Shown one piece after another: positions 26-11,203 of a stretch of DNA of 11,203 nucleotides. The DNA lies in NCBI GenBank assembly GCA_030602145.1, contig JAUWAH010000031.1, positions 1 to 11,203 on the forward strand, written 5' to 3'. Under the pieces are notes generated by a model. That model worked only from the letters and a program-made list of their open reading frames with translations, was not told where the DNA came from and did not search any database. How positions within the stretch are numbered: the first letter of the stretch is position 1; the number at the start of each line of letters is the position of its first letter. The translations under genes were made by a program, and so were the position numbers. Source of the stretch: Desulfobulbus sp. (lineage in GTDB: Bacteria; Desulfobacterota; Desulfobulbia; Desulfobulbales; Desulfobulbaceae).

Positions 26-1543
26 TTAACGCCACCACACGGCCGCAACCTGCTGGTGCTGTTGCCAGTGGTGCACCTGCTCCACAAGCTGGCTGACCGA
101 GGCGTGCATCAGGTCGATGAAGGGTTGCGGGCCCAGGCCGATCCAGAATACAAAGAGCAGGAAGGGGGCAAGGATAGCAATCTCCCTAACCCCGAGATCG
201 GTCAGGGCGGAATGGTCCGGATTATTGGTCCCTCCCCAGACCACCTTTTGCAGCATGCGCAGCATATAAGCTGCGGCCAGAACCGCGCCCGGGATGGCGG
301 CCAGCCCCAGGATGACGTTATGCTCGAATGCTCCGGCCAGGACCAGGAATTCACCGATGAACGAGTTGGTCCCCGGAAAGCCGAAGGATGAAAGCGAAAA
401 AAAGGCGAGAAAGGTGACGAACCAGGGCATGTACCTGCCCACGCCGCTGGCCAGGGCCAATTCCCGGCTGTGGGTGCGCTCGTAGATCATGCCTACGCAG
501 AGAAAAAGCGCGCCGGTGGTGACCCCGTGGTTGATCATTTGCAGCATTGCCCCCTCGACGCCGCGGGTATTGAGGACAAAGATGCCGAGGGTGACAAACC
601 CCATGTGGCCCACCGAGGAGTAAGCGATCAGCTTTTTCATGTCCTGCTGGGCCAGGGCCGTGAAGCCGCCGTAGAGGATGCCGGCGATGGACAGCCAGAG
701 GATCGGCTGGGCCAGGAGCATGGTGGCGTCCGGGGTGATCGGCAGACAGAAGCGCAGCATGCCGTAGGTGCCCATCTTCAACAGCACCGAGGCCAGGATG
801 ACCGAACCGGCGGTCGGCGCCTCGACATGGGCGGCCGGCAACCAGGTATGGAAGGGAAACATCGGCACCTTGATGGCAAAGGCCAGAAAAAAGGCGAGGA
901 AGACCAGGACCTGGAAGGTCATCGAATAGGGCTGCCACATCATCTCGGGGATGAAAAAACTACCACTCTTGAGATAGAGGGCGATGATCGCTACCAGGAG
1001 GAGCACCGAGCCGGCCAGGGTATAGAGGAAAAACTTTATGGAGGCGTAGGCCTTGCGGGGCCCACCCCAGACGGCGATGAGCAGGTACATGGGAATGAGC
1101 ATGAATTCCCAGAAGATGTAGAAAAGGACGAAATCCAGGGCGACGAAGACCCCGATCATCGAGGTCTCCATCACCAACAGGCAGAACATGAAGGGGGCCA
1201 CCCTGGTTTGGATGTATTTCCAGGAGGCAAGAACGCAAAACGGCATGATCAGGGTGGTGAGCAGGACCAGGAGGATCGAGATGCCGTCCATGCCGACGAT
1301 ATAGTTGATATGGAACCGCGGTATCCAGGCGTAGACCTCGGCGAACTGATACTTGGTGCTGGTCTGATCAAAGCCGATGAGCAGTGGCAGCGAGCAGACC
1401 GCGGTCAGCGAGGTGACCACCATCGCCCAAATCCGGGCGAATTGTTCACCGTGGAAGAAGAGCAGCACCACCCCCCCGGCCAAGGGCAGGAAAATGAGAA
1501 AGCTGAGCAGGGGAAACCCCTCTTTGATAAGTAGCAGATCCAT
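26..1543 (-). CDS. nuoM: NADH-quinone oxidoreductase subunit M, proton-pumping membrane subunit
   Basis: This 505-residue polytopic membrane protein is one of the antiporter-like, ion-pumping subunits of the complex I membrane arm. The residues known to matter in this family are visible: Glu146 in FYIFWEFMLIP (TM5), Lys225 in AFAIKVPMFPFHTWLP (TM7), Lys256 in ASVLLKMGTYGMLRF (TM8), His339 in MINHG and Glu398 in SFIGEF (the TM12 acidic residue that distinguishes NuoM from NuoL and NuoN). Motifs such as LIAYSSVGHMGFV and the length agree with the family. The open frame extends upstream to 1615, but the start at 1543 is preferred because AAGGGG lies seven bases before it and the longer version adds a non-homologous, basic N-terminus overlapping the previous gene. 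It begins 11 bases after the 596-residue antiporter subunit gene. Identification is firm. Confidence 0.96.
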   Translation of the reverse strand: MDLLLIKEGFPLLSFLIFLPLAGGVVLLFFHGEQFARIWAMVVTSLTAVCSLPLLIGFDQTSTKYQFAEVYAWIPRFHINYIVGMDGISILLVLLTTLIMPFCVLASWKYIQTRVAPFMFCLLVMETSMIGVFVALDFVLFYIFWEFMLIPMYLLIAVWGGPRKAYASIKFFLYTLAGSVLLLVAIIALYLKSGSFFIPEMMWQPYSMTFQVLVFLAFFLAFAIKVPMFPFHTWLPAAHVEAPTAGSVILASVLLKMGTYGMLRFCLPITPDATMLLAQPILWLSIAGILYGGFTALAQQDMKKLIAYSSVGHMGFVTLGIFVLNTRGVEGAMLQMINHGVTTGALFLCVGMIYERTHSRELALASGVGRYMPWFVTFLAFFSLSSFGFPGTNSFIGEFLVLAGAFEHNVILGLAAIPGAVLAAAYMLRMLQKVVWGGTNNPDHSALTDLGVREIAILAPFLLFVFWIGLGPQPFIDLMHASVSQLVEQVHHWQQHQQVAAVWWR

Positions 1544-1550
1544 TCCCTTA

Positions 1551-1556
1551 CCCCTT
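1551..1556 (-). promoter_or_regulatory. Ribosome binding site that fixes the nuoM start
   Basis: AAGGGG on the minus strand lies seven bases before the ATG at 1543 and overlaps the TAA stop of the preceding gene (1557-1555). It supports the short nuoM N-terminus MDLLLIKEG over the upstream in-frame start at 1615. Confidence 0.7.
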
Positions 1557-3345
1557 AGAGCAACTGAGAAACGATGAAGGTGATCAGGACGACGGCCGCA
1601 AGCGAGAAGGCACAATACAAGGTGACCTGGATCTGGCCGCTTTGCAGGGTCCGCACTCTGCCGCCCAGGCTCCGCACGCCTCGGGCGATACCGTCCACCA
1701 CGCCGTCAATTGCATGCCAATCAAACCAACTCCAGAAACGGCTCACCGTCATCAGTGGACCAAGCCCGACCACCCGGTATGCCTCGCCCCAAGCGGTGTC
1801 AACCCATTGCAGCGGTCGTCTGACCAACCAGAGGAAACCGCAGCCGGCCTGACGGTACAGCCAGTCGACATCCAGGCAGATGCGATCCACCGGCTCCACA
1901 TACCGTTTGAGGAGAAAAAAGGCCAGGGCGGCGAATCCCAGCAGTTGCAGGGTTTCCACCAGATGATAGAGGGTGTGCGGGCTATAGGTGGTCGCATAGG
2001 GCAGCAGGGCATAGAGCAAGCCGGGGGCCGTGCCCACCAGGACGCACAGGGTGGCGCCCAGGGTCATGGCGATCAGCATGTTCCAGGAGGGGTCCGCCGC
2101 CTTGTTCCAGGTGGTCGCATCACAGTTGTTGCGGCCGAAAAAGAGGAAGTAGGGCAGCTTGAGGCCATTGTACATGAAGGTACCGGTGGCGCCGAACATC
2201 AGCAGCCAGGCAGCCCAGTTGAGATGCTGGTCGAAACCGGCATTGATAATCATCGACTTGCTGGCATAGGCGGCAAAGAACGGGGCGGCGGAGATCGACA
2301 GGCAGCCGATCAGGGTAAAGAGAAAAGTGGCCGGCATTTTGGCGTACAACCCGCCCAGTTCGGTGAACTTGGTCTTGCCGGTCATGTAGAGCACCGAACC
2401 GGCACCCATGAACAGCAGGCTTTTATAGAGGATGTGGGCAACAGCGTGGGCCGATGCGCCGTTGATCGCCATTTCCGTGCCAATGCCGACACCGGCGACC
2501 ATATACCCCACCTGGGAGACGATCGACCAGGCCAGAAGCTTGCGGATGTCGTTTTCCATTACCGCATAGATGACGCCGTACAGGGCCATGATCACCCCGA
2601 GCACCACCAGGATCTCCATACCGGCACAGGACCGGGCCAGGGTGTAGACTGCGGTCTTGGTGGTGAAGGCGCAGAGGAACACCGCGCCGTTGAAGGAGGC
2701 CTCGGAATAGGCCTCGGGCAGCCAGGAATGGAGCGGCACCATGGCGGCGTTGAGGCCGAAGCCGATCATGATCAGCCAGGTATAGAGTTCGGGATGGGCG
2801 ACGTCCATCAGGTCGAAGGTGATGTTGCCCACCGCCTGGTAGCGGAGCAGGATGCCGGCCAGGAGAATGATGCCGCCGATGGTGTGGACGAGCAGGTACC
2901 GATAGCCCACCGCCAGCGAGTTTGGGCCCCGCCGGAACCAGACCAGAAAGACCGAGGCAAAGGCCATCATCTCCCAGAAGAGAAAGAGACTTAAGTAATC
3001 ACCGCTGTACATAACGCCCAGGGAGCCGGCGGCATAGAACCAGGCGGCCATGTGCTCGCCGGCCCGGTCGACGTGCAGACCGTAGAGGGTGCCGATCACC
3101 GCCATCAGTGCCATGATCAGGGCAAAGACGGTGGCCAGCTTGTCGACCCGGCCGAAGACGAGTTGCCAGTCGAGGAAGGTAACTTCGCCGAAGCTGCCGC
3201 TGAGGGTGGCGTTGATCGCCACGACGCACAGCGCCGAGAGTGGCACGAGAAACAGGTAGGGTTTGCGCAATGGTCCCCGGACAAAGGGGAGAATCAGTGC
3301 GCCGGCAATGAGCAGCACAGAGGGATGAAAAAAACTGGAGGTCAT
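1555..3345 (-). CDS. Antiporter-type proton-conducting subunit (MrpD/NuoL family) with NuoL-like lateral-helix tail, at the nuoL position
   Basis: This 596-residue polytopic protein belongs to the proton-conducting transporter family shared by NuoL/M/N and MrpA/MrpD. Family residues are visible: Glu125 in FLFWEMMAFASV (TM5), PLHSWLPEAYSEAS (204-217), Lys230 in AFTTKTAVYTLAR (TM8), LLAWSIVSQVGYM (270-282), Lys308 in HILYKSLLFMGAGSV (TM10) and Lys363 in AAYASKSMI (TM12). The TM7 position that holds Lys in NuoL and NuoM is Asn199 (GFGLNAAMVPLH). The core resembles proteins annotated as Na+/H+ antiporter subunit D more than textbook NuoL. After about residue 482 comes a long amphipathic stretch ending in RTLQSGQIQ and one last hydrophobic helix (572-594), the layout of the NuoL lateral helix and anchor. 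Its start overlaps the small gene upstream as ATGA, and GAGGA lies six bases before it. It may replace NuoL; an independent antiporter is less likely. Family is firm, exact role is inferred. Confidence 0.88.
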   Translation of the reverse strand: MTSSFFHPSVLLIAGALILPFVRGPLRKPYLFLVPLSALCVVAINATLSGSFGEVTFLDWQLVFGRVDKLATVFALIMALMAVIGTLYGLHVDRAGEHMAAWFYAAGSLGVMYSGDYLSLFLFWEMMAFASVFLVWFRRGPNSLAVGYRYLLVHTIGGIILLAGILLRYQAVGNITFDLMDVAHPELYTWLIMIGFGLNAAMVPLHSWLPEAYSEASFNGAVFLCAFTTKTAVYTLARSCAGMEILVVLGVIMALYGVIYAVMENDIRKLLAWSIVSQVGYMVAGVGIGTEMAINGASAHAVAHILYKSLLFMGAGSVLYMTGKTKFTELGGLYAKMPATFLFTLIGCLSISAAPFFAAYASKSMIINAGFDQHLNWAAWLLMFGATGTFMYNGLKLPYFLFFGRNNCDATTWNKAADPSWNMLIAMTLGATLCVLVGTAPGLLYALLPYATTYSPHTLYHLVETLQLLGFAALAFFLLKRYVEPVDRICLDVDWLYRQAGCGFLWLVRRPLQWVDTAWGEAYRVVGLGPLMTVSRFWSWFDWHAIDGVVDGIARGVRSLGGRVRTLQSGQIQVTLYCAFSLAAVVLITFIVSQLL

Positions 3346-3617
3346 TCTTCTTCCTCGCAGAGGGAAAGGGTGCGGTCATAGACATCGGCCTCGGCCTGGA
3401 TGCCGGACCGGCCAAACCAGCGGGCTGCACCGATGATGATCGCGGCGGCACCAAATCCGAACAGCGACCAGAAAAAAGGCACATGCTGTTCAGCCCAGCT
3501 ATGGGCATGGCTGGTGTCGACGAGCAGCGAACCGGCGGCGATCACGGCCAGCAGCACGGAACAGACCGTGACCACGGTTTTAATGCGGGCTTGCAACGAG
3601 GCGATAAGAGCGGTCAT
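3342..3617 (-). CDS. Small two-helix membrane protein of unknown function, coupled to both antiporter-type genes
   Basis: This 91-residue protein has two predicted membrane helices (about 15-33 and 48-66). The short loop between them holds three histidines (HAHSWAEQH, 37-45) followed by PFFWSLFGFG, and the end is acidic (VYDRTLSLCEEEE). I do not know a function. From memory, similar small proteins with a His/aromatic loop, an FxxFGF helix and a tail ending near DYYD often sit between MrpD-like genes in Desulfobacterota and Geobacter-type genomes; this is recall, not a search result. Both neighbours overlap it by ATGA (3614-3617 and 3342-3345), which implies coupled, near-stoichiometric translation and a role in assembling or bridging the two antiporter-type subunits. 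The codons of the acidic tail, GAG GAA GAA GAA, also supply the ribosome binding site of the next gene. It has no good ribosome binding site of its own. Confidence 0.8.
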   Translation of the reverse strand: MTALIASLQARIKTVVTVCSVLLAVIAAGSLLVDTSHAHSWAEQHVPFFWSLFGFGAAAIIIGAARWFGRSGIQAEADVYDRTLSLCEEEE

Positions 3618-5116
3618 CCTGTCACCATCCGAACGAATTGCATCATGAAGTTGGGGTAGATGCCGATGATCACCGAGAGGGTGACCGCGATCAAGAGGGG
3701 AATCAACATGCTGAGCGGCGCCTCCTTGATGCCGGTTTCGGCCTGACCGGCCGGGCGCTTACCGAAAAAGGCCTTGTAGGTCACCGGTGCGAAGTAGCCA
3801 ACATTGAGCACCGTCGAAGCAATGAGGATGAGCAGGATACCGACCTGGTGTGCCTCCATCGAACCGACCAGCAGGTACCATTTGGAAACGAATCCGGCCA
3901 CCGGCGGTGCGCCGATCATGGAAAGCGAGGCCACGGCAAAGGCGCCGAAGGTGAAGGGCATGGTCCGACCCAGGCCGCTCATTTCCGAGATGTATTTTTT
4001 ATGAGCCGCGATGTAGATGGCGCCGGCGCAGAAGAACAGGGTGATCTTGGCAAAGGCGTGGTTGACGATGTTGATCAGGCCACCCTCGATAGCGTGCGGA
4101 GTCAAGAGAGCCACGCCGAGGATGATGTAGGACAGTTGGCTGACCGTCGAATAAGCCAGTCGGGCCTTGAGGTTATCCTTGGACAGGGCGATCATCGAGG
4201 CGACGATGATGGTGAAGCCGACAAAATAGGCGGTGGGGATGCCCAGGTTGAGCCGGTCCATGGTGTCGACACCGAAGACGTAGAGCATGGTCCGGGTGGT
4301 GCAGAACACGCCAACCTTGACCACCGCCACCGCGTGCAGCAGCGCCGAGACCGGGGTCGGGGCGACCATGGCGCCGGGCAGCCAGTGGTGGAACGGCATG
4401 ACGCCGTTCTTGGCAAAGCCGAAGATGCAGAAGATGTAGAGCATGGTCACCACCCAGTCGGTGGCCGAGGCGGGGATGATGCCGCTGCTGATGGTGTGCG
4501 GAAAATCCAGGGTGCCAGCCAGCACATAGATGAGGATCAGGGCCGGCAGCAGGAAGAACTTGGCGGTGGCGGTCAGGTAGACGATGTACTTTCGCGCTCC
4601 CTCGTAGGACTCCTCGTCCTGGTGATGGGCGACCAGCGGATAGGTGCAGACCGAGACAATCTCGTAGAAGAGATAGAGGGTCAGCAGGTTGTCGGAGAAC
4701 GCCACGCCGATGGCGCCGAAGATGGCCAGGGCGAAGCAGGCGTTGAACCGGGTCTGGCAGGGTTCGTCATGGGCCCGCATGTAGCCCATGGAGTAAAAGA
4801 CGGCGATCATCCACAGCGAGGAGGCGACCAGGGCGAAGATCATGGAAAAGCCGTCGGCGCGGAGGGTGATCGACAATCCGGGCAGCAGTTGAAAGATCGG
4901 ATAGACCAGGGTGTTGCCGGCCTTGAGGGCCGGGATGAAGGAGATGACCATACAGAACAGCAGGACCGAAGCGCTGAGGGAAACGAATTCGCGCAGATTC
5001 GGGTTGTTCTTCAGGGTCATGACCACCAGGCTGCCAAACAGCGGAATGATCACCGCCAGCAGCAGGTTGGCATTCTCGACGACTTGGGCGGTGGAGGCAA
5101 GGATATCCATGGTCAT
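3614..5116 (-). CDS. MrpD-like monovalent cation/H+ antiporter subunit within the nuo operon
   Basis: This 500-residue polytopic membrane protein is of the proton-conducting transporter family, most like MrpD/MnhD cation:proton antiporter subunits and related to NuoL/M/N. The full set of channel residues is visible: Glu152 in YLFYEIVSVCTYP (TM5), Lys236 in GFAKNGVMPFHHWLP (TM7), Lys267 in HAVAVVKVGVF (TM8), Lys357 in NHAFAKITLFFCAGAI (TM10) and Lys412 in FVSKWYLL (TM12). APTPVSALLHAV and ARLAYSTVSQLSYI are classic family motifs. It has no long C-terminal lateral-helix region. The start is either 5116 (MTMDILAS, GGAG four bases upstream) or 5110, differing by two residues. It lies ten bases after nuoK and overlaps the small gene downstream by ATGA. 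The other genes of a stand-alone Mrp antiporter are absent here, so it likely works as an extra pump subunit of this complex I; that role is inferred. Confidence 0.9.
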   Translation of the reverse strand: MTMDILASTAQVVENANLLLAVIIPLFGSLVVMTLKNNPNLREFVSLSASVLLFCMVISFIPALKAGNTLVYPIFQLLPGLSITLRADGFSMIFALVASSLWMIAVFYSMGYMRAHDEPCQTRFNACFALAIFGAIGVAFSDNLLTLYLFYEIVSVCTYPLVAHHQDEESYEGARKYIVYLTATAKFFLLPALILIYVLAGTLDFPHTISSGIIPASATDWVVTMLYIFCIFGFAKNGVMPFHHWLPGAMVAPTPVSALLHAVAVVKVGVFCTTRTMLYVFGVDTMDRLNLGIPTAYFVGFTIIVASMIALSKDNLKARLAYSTVSQLSYIILGVALLTPHAIEGGLINIVNHAFAKITLFFCAGAIYIAAHKKYISEMSGLGRTMPFTFGAFAVASLSMIGAPPVAGFVSKWYLLVGSMEAHQVGILLILIASTVLNVGYFAPVTYKAFFGKRPAGQAETGIKEAPLSMLIPLLIAVTLSVIIGIYPNFMMQFVRMVTG

Positions 5117-5126
5117 TTTTCTCCGC

Positions 5127-5453
5127 TTACCCTTGCAGATCGACCAGATCGTCGGTCTCGATGGACTTGTAGTTGCGGTAGACGGCGATCATGATACTGA
5201 TGGCGATGGCCGCCTCGGCGGCGGCGATGGCCATGATGAACAGGGTGAAGATCTGTCCGATCGCCGGATCGGGGGCCAGAAAGCGGTTGAAGGCCATGAA
5301 ATTGGTCGAGGCTGCGGCCAGGATGAACTCGGCGGAGATCAGCATGCCGATCACCGTCCGACGGACCACCATGCCGTAGACACCGAAGGCGAACAGCAGG
5401 GCGCCGATCACCAGATAGGTCGACAGGCAGTTATAGAGATTCAAGAGCTGCAT
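5127..5453 (-). CDS. nuoK: NADH-quinone oxidoreductase subunit K
   Basis: This 108-residue, three-helix membrane protein is the small complex I subunit that continues the chain of buried charges between the quinone site and the antiporter-like pumps. The two membrane glutamates essential in the family are visible as Glu42 in MLISAEFILAAAS and Glu80 in AIAAAEAAIAIS, corresponding to the pair at 36 and 72 in E. coli NuoK. The two-residue larger spacing fits the slightly longer loop LAPDPAIGQ. It starts three bases after the nuoJ stop, with GGGGAG inside the end of nuoJ as a well-placed ribosome binding site. NuoK is homologous to MrpC, which is relevant because MrpD-like genes follow directly. 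Identification is firm. Confidence 0.96.
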   Translation of the reverse strand: MQLLNLYNCLSTYLVIGALLFAFGVYGMVVRRTVIGMLISAEFILAAASTNFMAFNRFLAPDPAIGQIFTLFIMAIAAAEAAIAISIMIAVYRNYKSIETDDLVDLQG

Positions 5454-5456
5454 CGG

Positions 5457-6011
5457 TTAGTTTCTCCCCTTCTGCGCAAGCACCAAGGCGCCGATGATGG
5501 CCAGGAGCAGGACGATGGAAATAAGTTCGAAGACAAGGCCGTGGGTGGTCAACAGCGACAAGCCCACCTCCTTGATATCAAAGGTTCCCTGGCGGGGAAA
5601 GACCTGCCATTCGGTCTTCAGGCCGAGCAGGGTCAGGGCGGCGAAGATCAGGGCGGCAACGCTGAAGGCCAGCGGGCCGGCGAGGGTTGCCTTGGAATGC
5701 ATTCCGGTGGCCTGCTGCTCCTCGGGCGTGGCCATCATGATGCCAAAGGCGATCAGGATCGAAACCGCCCCGACATAGATGAGCATCTGCATCATGGCCA
5801 AGAAGGGGCTGAGCAGGAAATAATAGACGCCGGCCAGGCCGGTGAAGCAAATGGCCAGCCCGGAAACGGCGCGAACCAACCGCCGGGCGTTGACCGCGAT
5901 CAGGGCACCGGTCACCACCAGGGCCACGGTGAGCAGAAAGACCACCCCCACCAGGCCCTCGGCGGAGAAAAGGGCCGGGGCGTCAGCCGGCTGACAGACT
6001 AGCGTGTGCAT
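5457..6011 (-). CDS. nuoJ: NADH-quinone oxidoreductase subunit J
   Basis: This 184-residue membrane protein with about five helices is a complex I membrane-arm subunit packed against NuoA, NuoH and NuoK. The family motif is clear: QMLIYVGAVSILIAFGIMM at about 75-93, where the third helix has the pi-bulge region linked to coupling in known structures. The segment after it (residues 95-105, EEQQATGM) is the usual hydrophilic loop. The start at 6011 lies 13 bases inside the 3' end of nuoI, and a near-perfect ribosome binding site GGAGGAG eight bases upstream confirms it. The C-terminus QKGRN ends three bases before nuoK. Length is normal for the family. Confidence 0.95.
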   Translation of the reverse strand: MHTLVCQPADAPALFSAEGLVGVVFLLTVALVVTGALIAVNARRLVRAVSGLAICFTGLAGVYYFLLSPFLAMMQMLIYVGAVSILIAFGIMMATPEEQQATGMHSKATLAGPLAFSVAALIFAALTLLGLKTEWQVFPRQGTFDIKEVGLSLLTTHGLVFELISIVLLLAIIGALVLAQKGRN

Positions 6012-6451
6012 CGATTCTGCTCCTCCAGCCTCTTGATGAGATCCATGATGAAGTCATTCTTGTCGAAACTGGCCAGGTTGTACTCCCTGGAAAATCGCAG
6101 GGCATTGAAGTTGCAGCTCTCCACGCAGGAGCCGCACAGGCTGCACTTGGTGAAGTCGATTATATAGCTGGTCAGCACCTTGCCTTTGCCGCCCTCGTTC
6201 TTCTTGCCATCCAGACTGATGCAGACGGATGGACAGGCTCGCTGGCACATGCCGCAGACCACGCAGTTGGGCGCGCCGGTCTCCTCGTTGCCGATCAGTT
6301 CGATGTGTCCCCTGAAGAGCGGTGTCATGGTCGGCACCTCCCAGGGATACTGCTCGGTCACCACCGGTTTGAAGAACTCCCGCGCGGTGATCGCCAGGCC
6401 GGTCACCAAACTTTTTCCGCCGGTGACGATATCGGTCCAATACCCGCTCAT
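5999..6451 (-). CDS. nuoI: NADH-quinone oxidoreductase subunit I, two [4Fe-4S] ferredoxin-like subunit
   Basis: This 150-residue iron-sulfur subunit of the peripheral arm passes electrons through clusters N6a and N6b to NuoB. Two four-cysteine motifs are visible: Cys63, 66, 69 and 73 (CVVCGMCQRACP) and Cys103, 106, 109 and 113 (CSLCGSCVESCN). All eight ligands are present, but the proline that usually follows the fourth cysteine is Asn114 in the second motif. An N-terminal amphipathic region (residues 1-30) fits attachment to the membrane arm. After the clusters comes a tail of about 35 residues ending DLIKRLEEQNRCTR, likely helical. The frame is open upstream to 6619, but 6451 is chosen because AAGGTG lies eight bases before it and the longer version would overlap nuoH by 166 bases. 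It starts two bases after nuoH. Confidence 0.95.
   Translation of the reverse strand: MSGYWTDIVTGGKSLVTGLAITAREFFKPVVTEQYPWEVPTMTPLFRGHIELIGNEETGAPNCVVCGMCQRACPSVCISLDGKKNEGGKGKVLTSYIIDFTKCSLCGSCVESCNFNALRFSREYNLASFDKNDFIMDLIKRLEEQNRCTR
6020..6026 (-). promoter_or_regulatory. Strong ribosome binding site for nuoJ inside nuoI
   Basis: GGAGGAG on the minus strand is placed eight bases before the nuoJ ATG at 6011. It lies within the last codons of nuoI and justifies the 13-base overlap of the two genes. Confidence 0.7.
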
Positions 6452-6453
6452 GC

Positions 6454-7446
6454 TCAAAACACCTTGATCAGGGCTGCCGTTACCATGAGGTTGGCCAGGG
6501 AAAACGGAATCAGTATTTTCCAGGAGAGGTTGAGAAGCCGGTAAATCTGGGTTCGCGGGTAGGTCCAGCGAATCCAGATGAAGGTGAAGATCAGGATGTA
6601 GATCTTGAGCAGAAACCACCAGATGCCGGGGGTCAGGCCAAAGGGGCAGTCCCAGCCGCCGAGAAAGAGCACGGCTGTCAGACAGGCGCCGACCACGATA
6701 TTGAGATATTCGCCCATCATGAACAGACCGAACCCCATGGAGCCGTATTCGGTCATGAAGCCGGCCACCAGCTCGCTCTCGGCCTCGGCCATGTCAAACG
6801 GCGCCCGGTTGGTCTCGGCTATCGCACAGATGAAGAAGATGATGAACGAGATCCACATGGTCAGGAAATGACCGTTTTCCAGGCGGAAGATGTTCCAGTG
6901 CCAGAAGCCGCCCTGCTGGTCGATGGCGATATCGCGAAGATTCATCGACCCGGAGATCATCACCACGGTGATCACCGTCAGCAGCATGGGAATCTCATAG
7001 GCCAGGTTCTGGGAAACCGCACGGGCGGAGGAGATGAGGGCGTACTTGTTGCCCGAGGCCCAGCCACCGAGCAGGATGGCGATCATGGCGATCGAGGCCA
7101 GGGCAAAGAGCAGCAGCACGGAGAGTTCCATGGCCCGGGCACCGATATTCTCCGAAAACGGGATGACCGCCATGGAGGTAATGGCCGGGATCATCGCCAG
7201 AACCGGCGCCACCCGGAAAATGATACCATCCACCCCCTGGGGCACCAGCAGTTGCTTGCTGAGCAGTTTGAGGCCGTCGGCCAGCGGTTGGAGCAGACCG
7301 GCGAACCCGGCCTCGCAGGGACCGATGCGCCGCTGAATGCGGGCTGCGCCCTTGCGCTCGCACCAGCCGAGCCAGGCGGCGTTGACACCTGCGAAGGCCA
7401 TGATCCCCACCAGGTACAGCAGGGCGTGCCACATACTTGTTTCCAT
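6454..7446 (-). CDS. nuoH: NADH-quinone oxidoreductase subunit H
   Basis: This 330-residue polytopic membrane protein builds the quinone chamber with NuoB and NuoD and is the most conserved membrane subunit of complex I. Family signatures are clear: CERKGAARIQRRIGP (29-43), GLLQPLADGLKLLSKQ (50-65), AYEIPMLL (149-156), IAETNRAPFDMAEAESELVA (209-228) and FMTEYGSMGFGLFMMGEYLN. The first motif differs from the common ERKVLARMQVRLGPN form and matches the version I associate with Desulfobacterota and Geobacter-type NuoH. The start METSMW at 7446 has a modest GAGAGAG ribosome binding site and lies 15 bases after nuoD. A second in-frame ATG at 7434 is possible but less likely. Length is normal. Confidence 0.96.
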   Translation of the reverse strand: METSMWHALLYLVGIMAFAGVNAAWLGWCERKGAARIQRRIGPCEAGFAGLLQPLADGLKLLSKQLLVPQGVDGIIFRVAPVLAMIPAITSMAVIPFSENIGARAMELSVLLLFALASIAMIAILLGGWASGNKYALISSARAVSQNLAYEIPMLLTVITVVMISGSMNLRDIAIDQQGGFWHWNIFRLENGHFLTMWISFIIFFICAIAETNRAPFDMAEAESELVAGFMTEYGSMGFGLFMMGEYLNIVVGACLTAVLFLGGWDCPFGLTPGIWWFLLKIYILIFTFIWIRWTYPRTQIYRLLNLSWKILIPFSLANLMVTAALIKVF

Positions 7447-7461: not shown

Positions 7462-8580
7462 TCAGCGGTCGATTTCGGGGATGACCAAATCCAGGCTGCC
7501 CATCAAGGCCAGGGCATCGGCCAGCAGCATGCCCTCGGCCACCTCGCCGTAGAGACTCAGGTTGGAGAAGGTCGGCGACCGCAGCTTGAGCTTGTAGGGA
7601 TTCTTGTCGCCGTTGCAGACCAATCGGTGGCCGAGCGAGCCACGGGCCGTTTCCACCGCCGAGTAGTAATAGCCGGCCCCGGGCTTGAGCACCTTGGGCA
7701 CTTTGGCCATCACCGGACCTTCGGGAAGCTTGTCCAGGGCCTGCTCGATGATTCGCATCGACTGTTCCATCTCGTGCATGCGCACCATGTAACGGGCCAT
7801 GGAATCGCCCTCGTTGAACACCGGCACGTCGAAATCGAACTCCGGGTACACCGAGTAGGGTTCGTGCTTGCGGACATCGTAGTCGATGCCCGAACCTCTG
7901 GCCACCGGGCCGGTGGCGCCGTAGCGGCGACACTGTTCGGCGGAGATGATGCCGATATCCTTGATCCGTTTGATCAGGATGATGTTGTGGGTCACCAGAT
8001 CATGGTACAGCCGGGGCATGCGGCCGCGGAGCCGCTTGATGAAGTCGCGGGTGCCTTTGATGAACTCGTCATCGATGTCGTTGTAGACGCCGCCGAAGCG
8101 CATGTAACAGTAGGTGAGCCGCGATCCGGTGATCCGCTCCAGAAGATCGATGATCTTCTCCCGGTCGTCGAAGGCGTAGAGCAAGGGGGTGAAGCCGCCG
8201 AGGTCGAGCAGGAAGGCCGCCCACCACAACAGATGGCTGGCAATCCGGTTGAGTTCGACGGTGATCACCCGGATGTATTCGGCCCGCTCCGGCACCTCGA
8301 TGCCGGCGGCCTTTTCCACCACCAGGGCCCAGCCATGGTTGAAGGCCAGGGCATGGAGATAGTCCATGCGGGCGGTATTGGGCATGAACTGGGCAAAGGT
8401 GCTGGCCTCGGCAAGTTTCTCGTGCATCCGGTGGATATAACCGAGCACCGGTTCGGCCTTGACGATGTACTCGCCGTCCATGGTGAGCTTGACCCGGAGC
8501 ACCCCATGGGTAGCCGGATGCTGAGGCCCCAGATTGAGGACAAAGGTCTCGTCATGCCGCGGGGAGACAGGAACGGTCAT
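7462..8580 (-). CDS. nuoD: NADH-quinone oxidoreductase subunit D (49 kDa type)
   Basis: This 372-residue peripheral-arm subunit forms the quinone-binding pocket with NuoB and descends from the large subunit of [NiFe] hydrogenases. The motif GPQHPATHGVLR (18-29) and the pair His25 and Tyr74 are visible, with the same 49-residue spacing as the two quinone-headgroup residues of the mitochondrial 49 kDa subunit (His59, Tyr108). Further signatures are ELNRIASHLLWW (109-120), RYGATGPVARGSG and the C-terminal DLVIPEIDR, where hydrogenases carry metal-binding cysteines that are absent here, as expected. It is a separate gene rather than a NuoCD fusion. Its ATG overlaps the nuoC stop as ATGA, with AAGGA nine bases upstream. 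Length is slightly short but within the family range. Confidence 0.97.
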   Translation of the reverse strand: MTVPVSPRHDETFVLNLGPQHPATHGVLRVKLTMDGEYIVKAEPVLGYIHRMHEKLAEASTFAQFMPNTARMDYLHALAFNHGWALVVEKAAGIEVPERAEYIRVITVELNRIASHLLWWAAFLLDLGGFTPLLYAFDDREKIIDLLERITGSRLTYCYMRFGGVYNDIDDEFIKGTRDFIKRLRGRMPRLYHDLVTHNIILIKRIKDIGIISAEQCRRYGATGPVARGSGIDYDVRKHEPYSVYPEFDFDVPVFNEGDSMARYMVRMHEMEQSMRIIEQALDKLPEGPVMAKVPKVLKPGAGYYYSAVETARGSLGHRLVCNGDKNPYKLKLRSPTFSNLSLYGEVAEGMLLADALALMGSLDLVIPEIDR

Positions 8581-9083
8581 GGCATATAGTCCTTGCGGAG
8601 GGGATAAAAATCGGCATCCTCCGGGAGAAGAATGCGGATCAGGTTGGGATGGTCCTGGAAGTGAATGCCGTAGAAGTCGAAGGTCTCGCGCTCATGCCAG
8701 TCGGCGGCAGGAAAGACCTCGGTGATGGTCGGCACCACTGGCTGGTTGCGGTCCATCAGGGTACGGACCATCACCCGGCAATGCTCGCCGCCCAGGCGGT
8801 TGTAGTCATAGATGATCTCGAATTGCTGCCTGTCCGGCCAGTCGACCCCGGAAATCGATTCGAGAAAATAGCCCTCACCATCCATGATCCGGGCCACAGC
8901 CACGACCTGGTCAGGACGGCAGAGCACATCGATATGATGCCCGTGTTTGGCAGGATCGGTGACCAGGATTCCGACCTCACGCGGGGCTGTCCCTTGATTG
9001 TCCTCTTCCGACGAGACAGCAGTGGGATGGGAATCGGGAAACAGTGTGCCCAGTGCCACCCGAGTTTGTTCCACAACGACCAT
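8577..9083 (-). CDS. nuoC: NADH-quinone oxidoreductase subunit C (30 kDa type)
   Basis: This 168-residue soluble subunit of the peripheral arm holds NuoB and NuoD together. The 30 kDa subunit signature lies at 130-156: HERETFDFYGIHFQDHPN followed by IRILLPED, with the usual upstream block PTITEVFPAADW. The end, YPLRKDYMP, is the typical close of an unfused NuoC. The N-terminal region has a polar, low-complexity stretch (about residues 18-36, HPTAVSSEEDNQGTAPREV) not usual in the family, perhaps a flexible loop. AAGGGGG seven bases upstream supports the start at 9083. It lies 17 bases after nuoB and overlaps nuoD by four bases. Confidence 0.95.
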   Translation of the reverse strand: MVVVEQTRVALGTLFPDSHPTAVSSEEDNQGTAPREVGILVTDPAKHGHHIDVLCRPDQVVAVARIMDGEGYFLESISGVDWPDRQQFEIIYDYNRLGGEHCRVMVRTLMDRNQPVVPTITEVFPAADWHERETFDFYGIHFQDHPNLIRILLPEDADFYPLRKDYMP

Positions 9084-9100: not shown

Positions 9101-9598
9101 TCAGCCCGGGTGGACCCGCGGCCAGCGGCGTTTGCCGGTGATCTTTTCCTCCAGCGTCATGATGCCCTCGAGCAGGGCCTCGGGACGCGGCGGACAGCCC
9201 GGGATGTAGACGTCGACCGGAAACAGCTTGTCCGCTCCTTCAACCACGTTATAATTTTCTTTCACCTTGAACGGCCCGCCGCTGATGGCGCAGTTGCCCA
9301 TGGCGATCACCCACTTGGGTTCGGGCATCTGGTCATACAAGGTCTTGACCGCCAACTCCAATTTCTTGTTGATGGTCCCGGCCACGATCATGACATCGGA
9401 CTGCCGGGGCGAAGGTCGAAACACCTCGGCACCGAAACGGGAGATGTCGTATCGGGAACCGCCGGTGCACATCATTTCAATGGCGCAGCAGGCCAGCCCG
9501 AAGGTCATGGGCCAGAGCGAATTGGCCCGGCCGAGATTGAGCAGTCTGTCGAGCTGGGCGAACTGCACTATTGAAGTCGGTACGTTTTCTTCTCCCAC
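9101..9598 (-). CDS. nuoB: NADH-quinone oxidoreductase subunit B, carries Fe-S cluster N2
   Basis: This 165-residue subunit binds the terminal [4Fe-4S] cluster N2 that reduces quinone. The ligands are visible: adjacent Cys37-Cys38 in [11 protein letters not shown], Cys103 in MGNCAISGG and Cys135 in [33 protein letters not shown] (60-75) is also typical. The start is GTG at 9598, 31 bases inside nuoA, because AAAGGAG lies seven bases before it. An alternative GTG at 9568, overlapping the nuoA stop by one base, has no ribosome binding site and would remove ten residues. The C-terminus [11 protein letters not shown] is short and basic. Identification is firm; the start is probable. Confidence 0.96.
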
Positions 9599-9975
9599 GT
9601 AAACACTCCTTTACGCCAGGCATAGACGATGGCTAATGATAAAATGGCGACAAACAGCAGAATCTCGAAGAAATCCCGTAGTCCCAGCCCCGGGCTGTTG
9701 TAGGCGACAGCCACCGGAAAGAGAAAAAGCACGTCGACGTCGAAGGCCAGAAAGATAAGGGCATACCGATAGTAGACGATCCCGAAGCGGATCCAGGCAC
9801 TGCCGATGGGCTCCATGCCGCATTCGATCAATTGGCCGGTGCGGCCGGCGGTCTGCCGGGTATGGGAGGAAGGACTGAGCAGATTGACGATGATGATCGG
9901 CCCAATCCCGAACAGCAGGGCGCCGATCAGAAAAAGCGTGACATAGATGATATTGGTGATAGTCCCTTGATCCAT
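9568..9975 (-). CDS. nuoA: NADH-quinone oxidoreductase subunit A
   Basis: This 135-residue membrane protein with three helices is a complex I subunit at the joint of the two arms and the first gene of the operon. The family motif is clear: [20 protein letters not shown] (51-70) followed by [11 protein letters not shown] (77-87). The acidic pair is Asp79 and Asp81; in E. coli NuoA it is Asp79 and Glu81. The frame is open upstream to 10011 (MMPPRGRGEEGG), but 9975 is chosen because AGGAGG stands five bases before it and the upstream residues are Gly/Arg-rich and unlike the family. The 3' end overlaps nuoB by 31 bases. Confidence 0.95.
9606..9612 (-). promoter_or_regulatory. Ribosome binding site for the GTG start of nuoB
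   Basis: AAAGGAG on the minus strand is seven bases before the GTG at 9598 and lies inside the nuoA coding region. It is the reason for choosing this start over the GTG at 9568. Confidence 0.65.
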
Positions 9976-9980
9976 CCCTC

Positions 9981-9986
9981 CCTCCT
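9981..9986 (-). promoter_or_regulatory. Ribosome binding site that fixes the nuoA start
   Basis: AGGAGG on the minus strand is five bases before the ATG at 9975, inside a purine-rich run (9976-9987). It supports MDQGTITN as the NuoA N-terminus rather than the in-frame ATG codons at 10011 and 10008. Confidence 0.7.
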
Positions 9987-10044
9987 CACCACGGCCACGC
10001 GGTGGCATCAATCTGACTGATGCGTTTTATCAACAAACCTTATC

Positions 10045-10213: not shown

Positions 10214-10233
10214 CAATTCCGATCATGGAATTG
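10214..10233. promoter_or_regulatory. Inverted repeat of LysR-box type (T-N11-A), candidate operator
   Basis: CAATTCC and GGAATTG form perfect seven-base arms around the six-base spacer GATCAT. The core fits the LysR T-N11-A pattern twice (T10217 to A10229 and T10218 to A10230). It is 27 bases upstream of the regulator start codon at 10261. Binding by the adjacent regulator is inferred from position and symmetry. Confidence 0.5.
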
Positions 10234-10234
10234 T

Positions 10235-10247
10235 TCAGTCGAACTGA
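10235..10247. promoter_or_regulatory. Second T-N11-A inverted repeat, candidate operator half
   Basis: TCAGT and ACTGA form five-base arms around CGA, giving a 13-base dyad whose ends are T and A in the T-N11-A arrangement. Its centre is about 17 bases from that of the repeat at 10214-10233. LysR-type tetramers bind two neighbouring sites, so the pair may be one operator. The short arms make chance occurrence possible. Confidence 0.35.
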
Positions 10248-10260
10248 TACACAACCGTCC

Positions 10261-11203
10261 ATGGCCATCACCTTCAGACAACTTGAAATTTTCATCGCCG
10301 TCGCCGAGACGCAGCAGGTCACCCGGGCCAGCAAAAAGCTGCTACTGACCCAGTCGGCGGTGAGCATGGCTCTGGGTGAATTGGAAAACCAGCTGGGCGG
10401 TCCCCTGTTCGATCGGCATGGCCGCAGCCTACTCCTCAATGACCGGGGACGCTATCTTCTGCCGCTGGCCAAGAACATTCTGCACCAGGTGGCCAACATC
10501 GAGACCATCCTCACCGAACAGCAGGACACGGTGGCCGGTGTCCTGGAAATCGTCGCCAGTTCGACCATCGGCAACTATGTCCTCCCCTACCTGATCGGCG
10601 CCTTCATGCGGCTCCATCCCGAGGCCCATATCAACATGCTGGTGGTCAACACCATGAGCGCGGAGAAGCTGGTGGCCGGTGGTCAGGCTGACCTTGGCTT
10701 CGTCGAAGGGGACATCAATGTCGACGCCCTGGTGGCCACTTCCTGGTTCGAGGACGAGTTGGGGATCATCGTCAGCTCCACCCACAAGCTGGCCGATCGT
10801 GACACCTTCCACTTTCCCGACGACCTGAAGGAAACCAGTTGGGTGATGCGCGAGGAAGGCTCTGGAACCGCCGAAATTTTCACCAAAAAGCTTGGTCGCC
10901 ACGCCTCGATGCTTAAAGTGGTCACCAAGACCGGCCATACCGAGGCGATCAAGAAGGCGGTGGAATCGGGGGTCGGTGCCGCCTGCCTGTCCATGCTGAC
11001 CGTCTGCCGTGAGGCCGAAGAGGGGTGGCTGAAGATTCTGCCCATCGAGGGCATCGACATGAGCCGCCAACTGTGGATCATCCAGCACAAGGACAAGATC
11101 ATCACCCGGCTGATGGCGGAATTTCTCCGCTTCTGCGAGGTGGTGGCGGAAAACCATCTCGGCCGCGAATGCCTGTCGTCCCCGTGGAAGCTGCAATCGC
11201 TGC
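10261..11203 (+). CDS. LysR-type transcriptional regulator, CysL/CbbR-like (3' end outside window)
   Basis: The open frame gives 314 residues without a stop before the window ends; the family is usually about 300, so little is missing. Residues 1-60 form the LysR winged helix-turn-helix (FRQLEIFIAVAETQQVTRAS, then QSAVSMALGELENQLGGPLF and DRHGRSLLLNDRG). A linker helix (about 64-90) leads to the effector domain. VASSTIGNYVLPYLIGAF (98-115), GQADLGFVEGDI (141-152) and REEGSGTAE (197-205) match the CysL/CbbR/YeiE-like branch, whose ligands are small metabolites or anions. The effector here is unknown. The start at 10261 (MAITFRQLEIF) fits the family. An in-frame ATG at 10225 would add 12 residues and lies inside the candidate operator; neither start has a clear ribosome binding site. 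The gene is divergent from the nuo operon, as is typical for LysR regulators and their targets, so control of nuo is plausible but unproven. Confidence 0.92.
   Translation, partial: MAITFRQLEIFIAVAETQQVTRASKKLLLTQSAVSMALGELENQLGGPLFDRHGRSLLLNDRGRYLLPLAKNILHQVANIETILTEQQDTVAGVLEIVASSTIGNYVLPYLIGAFMRLHPEAHINMLVVNTMSAEKLVAGGQADLGFVEGDINVDALVATSWFEDELGIIVSSTHKLADRDTFHFPDDLKETSWVMREEGSGTAEIFTKKLGRHASMLKVVTKTGHTEAIKKAVESGVGAACLSMLTVCREAEEGWLKILPIEGIDMSRQLWIIQHKDKIITRLMAEFLRFCEVVAENHLGRECLSSPWKLQSL

Follow-up and report, generated by a model that had tools for sequence, protein, structure and literature searches.

The window analysed here is a whole contig of a sulfate reducer, Desulfobulbus sp. (C207; JAUWAH010000031.1, assembly GCA_030602145.1) of 11,203 nucleotides, and it carries a complex I that this genome has in addition to its canonical one. 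The operon has 13 genes: nuoA-D, nuoH-K, D1, X, D2 and nuoM in the window, and nuoN on another contig (C83). Profile scans found no nuoL in the window's operon. The three-gene block D1-X-D2 stands in its place between nuoK and nuoM, as the original prediction had proposed. Judging from their residues, the operon would encode four antiporter-like subunits, three of them with a standard channel; the channel of D1 appears complete and that of D2 lacks the lysine (Lys) of transmembrane helix 7 (TM7). The genes of the block are:

1555..3345, minus strand: D2, antiporter-like subunit with a NuoL-type tail, 596 residues (NF009310 at 708 bits, cut-off 564; AlphaFold2 predicted local distance difference test (pLDDT) of 86.7; residue tally)
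3342..3617, minus strand: X, 91 residues with two hydrophobic stretches (no Pfam or NCBIfam match; aligned relatives come from rhizobial and Mrp-type loci)
3614..5116, minus strand: D1, antiporter-like subunit, 500 residues (NF006236 at 818 bits, cut-off 663; residue tally)

Replacement of nuoL by the block

The minus-strand gene order is nuoA-B-C-D-H-I-J-K-D1-X-D2-nuoM, and the sole exception in strand is a LysR-type gene. The open reading frame (ORF) list gives overlaps of 4 bases at D1/X and at X/D2. The contig terminates shortly past nuoM. The NuoN expected beside NuoM is encoded by the same genome on C83. A perfect overlap of 17 nt links the end of C83 to the start of the window, and in a 64-protein tree this NuoN groups with the nuoN product of a relative (L048), with 100% support. 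The gene that follows nuoM is nuoN; a nuoL directly downstream, which the prediction had named as counter-evidence, did not occur. The host genome (2.8 Mb, 72% complete) has a genuine nuoL (640 aa) on a separate contig (C475), within a canonical piece nuoI-J-K-L-M-N; therefore, the complex I of the window is an additional one and not the only one. ORF and profile scans of the window did not find nuoE, nuoF or nuoG in its operon.

Of 80 named loci, D2 is accompanied by at least two nuo core genes in 66. All 66 contain D1, and X is matched in 52, NuoM in 65 and NuoN in 61; none has an ORF whose best match is NuoL with a score of at least 40 bits (this floor removed one 92-aa ORF in L123, with 25 bits). 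The other 14 loci comprise ten in which D2 and NuoM have few or no core genes beside them and four without NuoM; of the latter, L139, L140 and L145 belong to Mrp clusters and L146 begins within D1, so that its setting is unseen. It is supported that the block stands in for nuoL. A plain NuoL was rejected as the identity of either large protein, since both D1 (210 bits) and D2 (141 bits) miss the 407.5-bit cut-off of the NuoL model TIGR01974. Most of 20 aligned relatives of X end in an ED(Y/F)Y-type motif, and the window's X ends in a variant of it.

The same operon is present in 12 of 15 stretches from relatives (L048-L062), with nuoH split over two frames in L057; therefore, the arrangement is no assembly accident. 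In the ten closest of the 12 (L048-L050, L052-L057, L061), D1, D2 and NuoM are 72-95% identical to those of the window. The remaining three stretches have the block inside an Mrp cluster (L060, L062) or in a degenerate form (L051). The D2 of Desulfobulbus elongatus is 88% identical to the window's D2.

Channel residues

The channel residues were compared with those of E. coli NuoL, NuoM and NuoN. The D1 of the window has E152, K236, H261, K267 and K412. The TM5 Glu, TM7 Lys, TM12 Lys and the TM8 His261 are kept in 69/69 D1 loci and Lys267 in 68/69; the paired His and Lys of TM8 are shared with MrpA and HyfD.

The TM7 position of the window's D2 is Asn199 and not Lys. The TM7 Lys is absent from 112/112 D2 loci (Asn in 111, Ser in 1), and E125 (TM5), K230 (TM8) and K363 (TM12) are kept in all 112 and K308 in 111. 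This tally covers lengths of 560-630 residues with duplicates kept, leaving out the degenerate D2 of L051 (TM7 Ser) and L193 (TM7 Gly). In a protein database, 120 further D2 homologues have Asn at this site in 119 cases (one unread), and 120 NuoL homologues have Lys in 112 (eight unread). Within the 64-protein panel, 49 non-D2 proteins cover the site and 47 of them have the TM7 Lys, against 0 of 14 D2 proteins; both exceptions are degenerate L051 proteins. Since D2 lacks this lysine in 112/112 loci, the four pump subunits of the original prediction are not supported.

The degenerate form of the block was seen in two genomes. The D1-D2-M-N block of G018 (one contig, same genus; L051:5603-11817) and the D2-M-N block of G013 (L193:4815-9293), which runs to the contig end, have open frames and no adjoining nuoA-K, and both have lost most channel residues. 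In G018, D1/D2/M/N have T/S/R/L at TM7 and L/Q/A/R at TM12; D2 retains the TM5 Glu. The NuoM-like proteins of the two blocks are 49% identical. A search with the window's nuoH gave one match in each genome (39-40%), the canonical one. Since two genomes share it, the degenerate block may have a new non-pumping use or may be decaying.

Tail of D2 and the membrane arm

The AlphaFold2 model of D2 (predicted template modelling score (pTM) 0.81) has TM15, one lateral helix of 74 residues (495-568) and TM16 (572-595), in agreement with the NuoL-style tail claimed for the second D-like protein. Its core superposes on E. coli NuoL at 2.4 Å over 471 residues, and at 16.6 Å when the tail is included. In the model of the host genome's NuoL (pLDDT 77.4, pTM 0.78), the lateral helix has 54 residues. 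A pattern count from the anchor motif to the helix end gives 76-77 residues in 96 of the 105 D2 loci with a NuoL-type tail (seven gave 81-82, as the end pattern overran, and two were unread); in the nine loci that lack this tail motif, the count was 44 to 77 or could not be read. The same count is 52 in the 87 pattern-readable of 120 close NuoL homologues (33 tails unread) and 47 in E. coli NuoL. In the first sequence alignment, the lateral helix of NuoL began some 26 residues later on D2 than in the structural alignment; the structures were followed. The lateral helix of D2 exceeds that of NuoL by 20-24 residues. PMC9040806 describes 26 residues added in D2 for one further subunit in a five-subunit form, and by this yardstick the modelled surplus would be about one subunit width. 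The predicted lengthening supports an arm that holds four antiporter-like subunits. D1, judged by its length and not from a model, is too short to hold a lateral helix.

The AMeS2 operon also has 13 genes, in the order A-B-C-D-H-I-J-K-D1-X-D2-M-N. A search of the AMeS2 genome found no NuoL above cut-off and two D2, the second of which sits in an Mrp cluster. We infer that these 13 genes are the 13 published locus tags that run at steps of five. Three indirect lines, namely co-occurrence in the loci, lateral helix length and the AMeS2 locus tags, bear on a shared complex, and from sequences and models it seems fairly probable that the operon encodes one complex I without NuoEFG and with the arm order N-M-D1-D2.

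Relationship to Mrp antiporters and known complex I forms

The tree of 64 antiporter-like proteins (351 columns, few Mrp rows) places D1 and D2 in separate clades with 100% support each, apart from MrpD. NuoL joins MrpA (93%) and then HyfD (98%), with D2 beside them at weak support (53%), and MrpD is closer to NuoM (75%). A plain MrpD was therefore rejected for both proteins. D1 and D2 pass the curated cut-offs of NF006236 and NF009310, which are both named antiporter subunit D; since their clades sit apart from MrpD, the label "MrpD-like" given to the extra subunit appears from the tree to be a name inherited from annotation. The suggested transport of Na+ rather than H+ was also set aside, as no supporting feature turned up, though no direct test was aimed at it. 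Profile scans of the window's proteins gave no match to MrpB, MrpC, MrpE, MrpF or MrpG. Two other contigs of the host genome (G000) have antiporter-like genes: C84 (L046) carries an MrpA/MrpD pair by tree placement (100% each), and C264 (L045) carries two genes of unclear type, one of them beside the D1 clade.

The arrangement is not new as a kind, since the green complex I of rhizobia, in which two MrpD-like subunits take the place of NuoL, is already described in passages of PMC9040806, PMC7415380 and PMC4967309. The window shares with it the replacement of NuoL by two D-type subunits and, with Sinorhizobium (S.) meliloti pSymA and Ensifer canadensis, the order nuoJ-K-D1-(84-aa ORF)-D2-M-N. 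The rhizobial D2 is about 48% identical to the window's, with the same TM7 Asn and a similar tail length. However, the rhizobial operons have nuoA and then E-F-G genes after N; nuoE-F-G are annotated in Ensifer and nuoE-F in S. meliloti, where nuoG is found by match, whereas the window's operon has none. Green complex I is described with NuoEFG that has extra iron-sulfur clusters in NuoG (PMC4967309). The NuoB, C, D, H, J, K, M and N of S. meliloti (L063) match the canonical genes of Desulfobulbus better than those of the window. In an unrooted NuoD tree, a split with 100% support leaves rhizobia together with the canonical sequences, with an inner support of 58; the rhizobial and window cores may or may not be of one lineage. 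With NuoEFG taken as defining, the window's complex is therefore a variant of green complex I and not a member.

Other forms are similar in part. Complex_I_3 of Candidatus Manganitrophaceae also has two D-type subunits for NuoL, but it has two NuoM, giving five such subunits, and a D2 helix 26 residues longer than the rhizobial one; the 2M complex I of Nitrospira has four antiporter-like subunits and a lengthened lateral helix like the window, but there NuoL is retained and a second NuoM supplies the extra subunit, whereas the window has one NuoM and no NuoL (both from the account in PMC9040806). The Desulfitobacterium enzyme lacks the NADH module like the window's complex, but has eleven subunits and not thirteen (PMC11238625).

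The same D1-D2 pair occurs in five Mrp clusters (L060, L062, L140, L145, L200), in the order F-G-(A_C/B)-C-D-D1-(X)-D2. X is matched in L060, L140 and L145 and unmatched in L062 and L200; the ORF at that place in L062 does align with X. Here the block adjoins MrpF/G/A_C-B/C/D genes, with no redox subunits in the stretches read, and the D2 tail differs in sequence. These five stretches contain no ORF best-matching MrpA or NuoL (L139 has broken frames), and the block therefore stands where the NuoL-like half of MrpA would be.

In three relatives (L111, L114, L042), the block stands beside canonical-type genes. The nuoA-K and nuoN products of L111 (uncultured Desulfocapsa) are 49-81% identical to those of canonical operons and 26-55% to the window's, and in a tree its NuoD groups with canonical NuoD of Desulfobulbales (support 96, 91, 100). 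Its M, D1, X and D2 are 69, 68, 32 and 60% identical to the window's. Trees without Mrp-type copies group its M, D1 and D2 with the green ones, but their exact position has low support; the NuoM is clearly green-type, with 69% identity versus 53-54% to canonical ones. L114 has the same hybrid pattern by best matches from nuoH onward, and L042, a short stretch, holds nothing beyond D1, X, D2 and a canonical-type NuoN. Because it is found beside canonical-type genes in three relatives and in five Mrp clusters, the block looks portable between complex I cores and Mrp antiporters. One result blurs the source of the L111 block and counts against the favoured explanation: the D2 of L111 is about equally close to the Mrp-type D2 (65.8%, 695 bits) and to the window's (60.4%, 699 bits). 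A wider reading is offered only tentatively, as somewhat less than an even chance. D1-X-D2 would be a tip module able to move between complexes, and on several occasions it would have ousted the terminal antiporter subunit that bears the brace: in the Desulfobulbales/Verrucomicrobia core, the rhizobial core, the canonical-type cores of Desulfocapsa and its relatives, and Mrp antiporters, where it would take the place of the N-half of MrpA. The job of NuoL would be split between D1, with the complete proton channel, and D2, with the lengthened brace and a channel that lacks the TM7 Lys, giving four antiporter-like subunits and three standard pumps.

Distribution

D2 was counted at 114 loci (104 distinct), as some genomes occur in two collections. 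It scores above its family cut-off in 95 of 197 genomes of the phylum, Mrp-linked copies included, versus 0 of 14 control genomes; the sample was set to a completeness of at least 90, with the host genome added. NuoL is above cut-off in 34 of 55 relatives, and 20 of the 21 NuoL-less ones have D2 above its cut-off; a NuoM-type gene adjoins D2 in 14/14 stretches read among these 20. Since 20 of 21 carry D2, the D1-X-D2 type may be the only complex I in many Desulfobulbales, where other nuo genes were only partly searched. Record titles place related operons also in Verrucomicrobia and Geobacteraceae.

NuoF is above cut-off in 6 of 10 genomes searched. The NuoF match of the host genome is below cut-off, and G018 and G027 have no NuoF match; G027 carries a green-type operon. 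EFG-like ORFs above 80 bits lie near 2 of the 66 related operons. Besides its usual operon (L057) and a canonical one (L201), G027 has a second, divergent copy (L058; G027:C1:3451001-3471000), with NuoD 60%, D1 51% and D2 48% identical to the window's. G001 (one contig, same genus) has three complex I types: canonical with NuoE-F-G (L195), canonical without (L196) and green (L048).

Proposed function and alternatives

The favoured arrangement would put all four antiporter-like subunits into a single membrane arm, as N-M-D1-D2. D2 would occupy the tip, and its longer lateral helix would hold D1, M and N in a clamp. The added proton-translocating subunit, with a complete channel, would be D1. 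D2, going one step further, would be mainly tip and brace, and because the TM7 Lys is absent, its altered channel would translocate less than NuoL or differently. X may help to keep D1 attached to D2. The D1-X-D2 block would have replaced NuoL as one unit. PMC11238625 proposes ferredoxin or hydrogenase as donor for the 11-subunit Desulfitobacterium enzyme; here, reduced ferredoxin or a different soluble donor would probably supply the electrons, which would pass to menaquinone, coupled to H+ export. The reverse direction, making low-potential reductant, would be an alternative.

It is possible, though unlikely, that all four subunits pump, with a yield one ion higher per two electrons than in canonical complex I and with E125, K230, K308 and K363 of D2 compensating for the missing lysine. 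The strong constraint on these four residues would be needless in a pure brace, and PMC4938563 reports that NuoL K229A left growth almost unchanged in a complementation assay with B. subtilis delta-mrpA, which indicates tolerance. However, the same paper cites earlier work in which K229A severely lowered complex I activity, and the contrast between D2 and the other proteins of the 64-protein panel also argues against four pumps. Since the mutation is reported to harm complex I yet to spare growth in the Mrp assay, the D2 channel is read as altered and not as proven dead. A less probable arrangement is the same complex with D1 outermost, beyond a D2 in the usual place of NuoL. In canonical operons, the L-M-N gene order mirrors the subunit order from tip to base, and on that pattern the leading position of the D1 gene would favour an outer D1. 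The 20-24 residues by which the lateral helix proper of D2 exceeds that of NuoL, and the 26 further residues in the five-subunit form, speak for D2 at the tip. Least probable is an Mrp-type cation/proton antiporter built from D1, X, D2 and further proteins, whose genes only share a transcript with those of a short, NuoL-less complex I. The Mrp subunit D model names of both large proteins and the Mrp clusters with D1-X-D2 fit this; it is opposed by the missing matches to MrpB, C, E, F and G in the window, by the NuoL-type tails of nuo-linked D2, which differ in sequence from Mrp-linked ones, and by the lack of NuoL in 66/66 operons.

Several results count against the arm N-M-D1-D2 with D2 as a brace. 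Loss of the TM7 Lys need not abolish transport, because K229A barely affected delta-mrpA growth. Measured between the end of TM15 and the start of TM16, D2 is longer by no more than about 10-15 residues, as two short helices precede the lateral helix in NuoL; this also suits an outermost D1. Mrp-type D2 tails are equally long overall (106-107 residues) with one such subunit fewer expected, so whole-tail length was rejected as a simple subunit ruler. The NuoL control model is weak within the lateral helix (pLDDT about 45-60), isolated amphipathic helices may be idealised in models, and the measured NuoL homologues are all at least 72% identical to one single protein. The AMeS2 authors list only NuoAHJKLMN and NuoBCDI, which leaves the locus-tag link indirect, and the shared assembly is deduced from sequences and models of single proteins.

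Other genes of the window

26..1543, minus strand: nuoM, 505 residues from the ATG at 1543, a chosen start (scans used 26-1540) (TIGR01972 at 610 bits, cut-off 264)
5127..5453, minus strand: nuoK (NF004320 at 80.7 bits, cut-off 57)
5457..6011, minus strand: nuoJ (NuoJ models, best E 1e-26, below their cut-offs)
5999..6619, minus strand: nuoI open frame, with a true start probably near 6457 as deduced from relatives of 150-152 aa (ORF list, profile scan, relatives)
6454..7446, minus strand: nuoH (NF004741 at 317.6 bits, cut-off 305)
7462..8580, minus strand: nuoD (NF004739 at 434 bits, cut-off 360)
8577..9083, minus strand: nuoC (TIGR01961 at 108.6 bits, below the cut-off of 122)
9101..9598, minus strand: nuoB (PF01058 at 106 bits)
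9568..10011, minus strand: nuoA (PF00507 at 94.7 bits)
10225..11202, plus strand: divergent LysR-type regulator, reaching the contig end (PF00126 and PF03466)

A divergent LysR-type gene adjoins nuoA in 19 of 53 related loci with enough upstream sequence; by record titles, these 19 belong to Desulfobulbus, Desulfocapsa and similar organisms.

Implications

The points that this analysis adds are the helix surplus of D2, its loss of the TM7 Lys, the portability of the block and the separation of D1 and D2 from MrpD. If the four subunits share one arm, and one of them lacks a near-universal lysine, the complex would be a natural mutant for testing whether each such subunit must pump. Organisms that seemingly have this as their sole complex I (e.g. 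Desulfurivibrio dismutans) would be a clean setting for measuring ions per electron pair. Judging from the hybrid operons, complex I may exchange its tip in the course of evolution.

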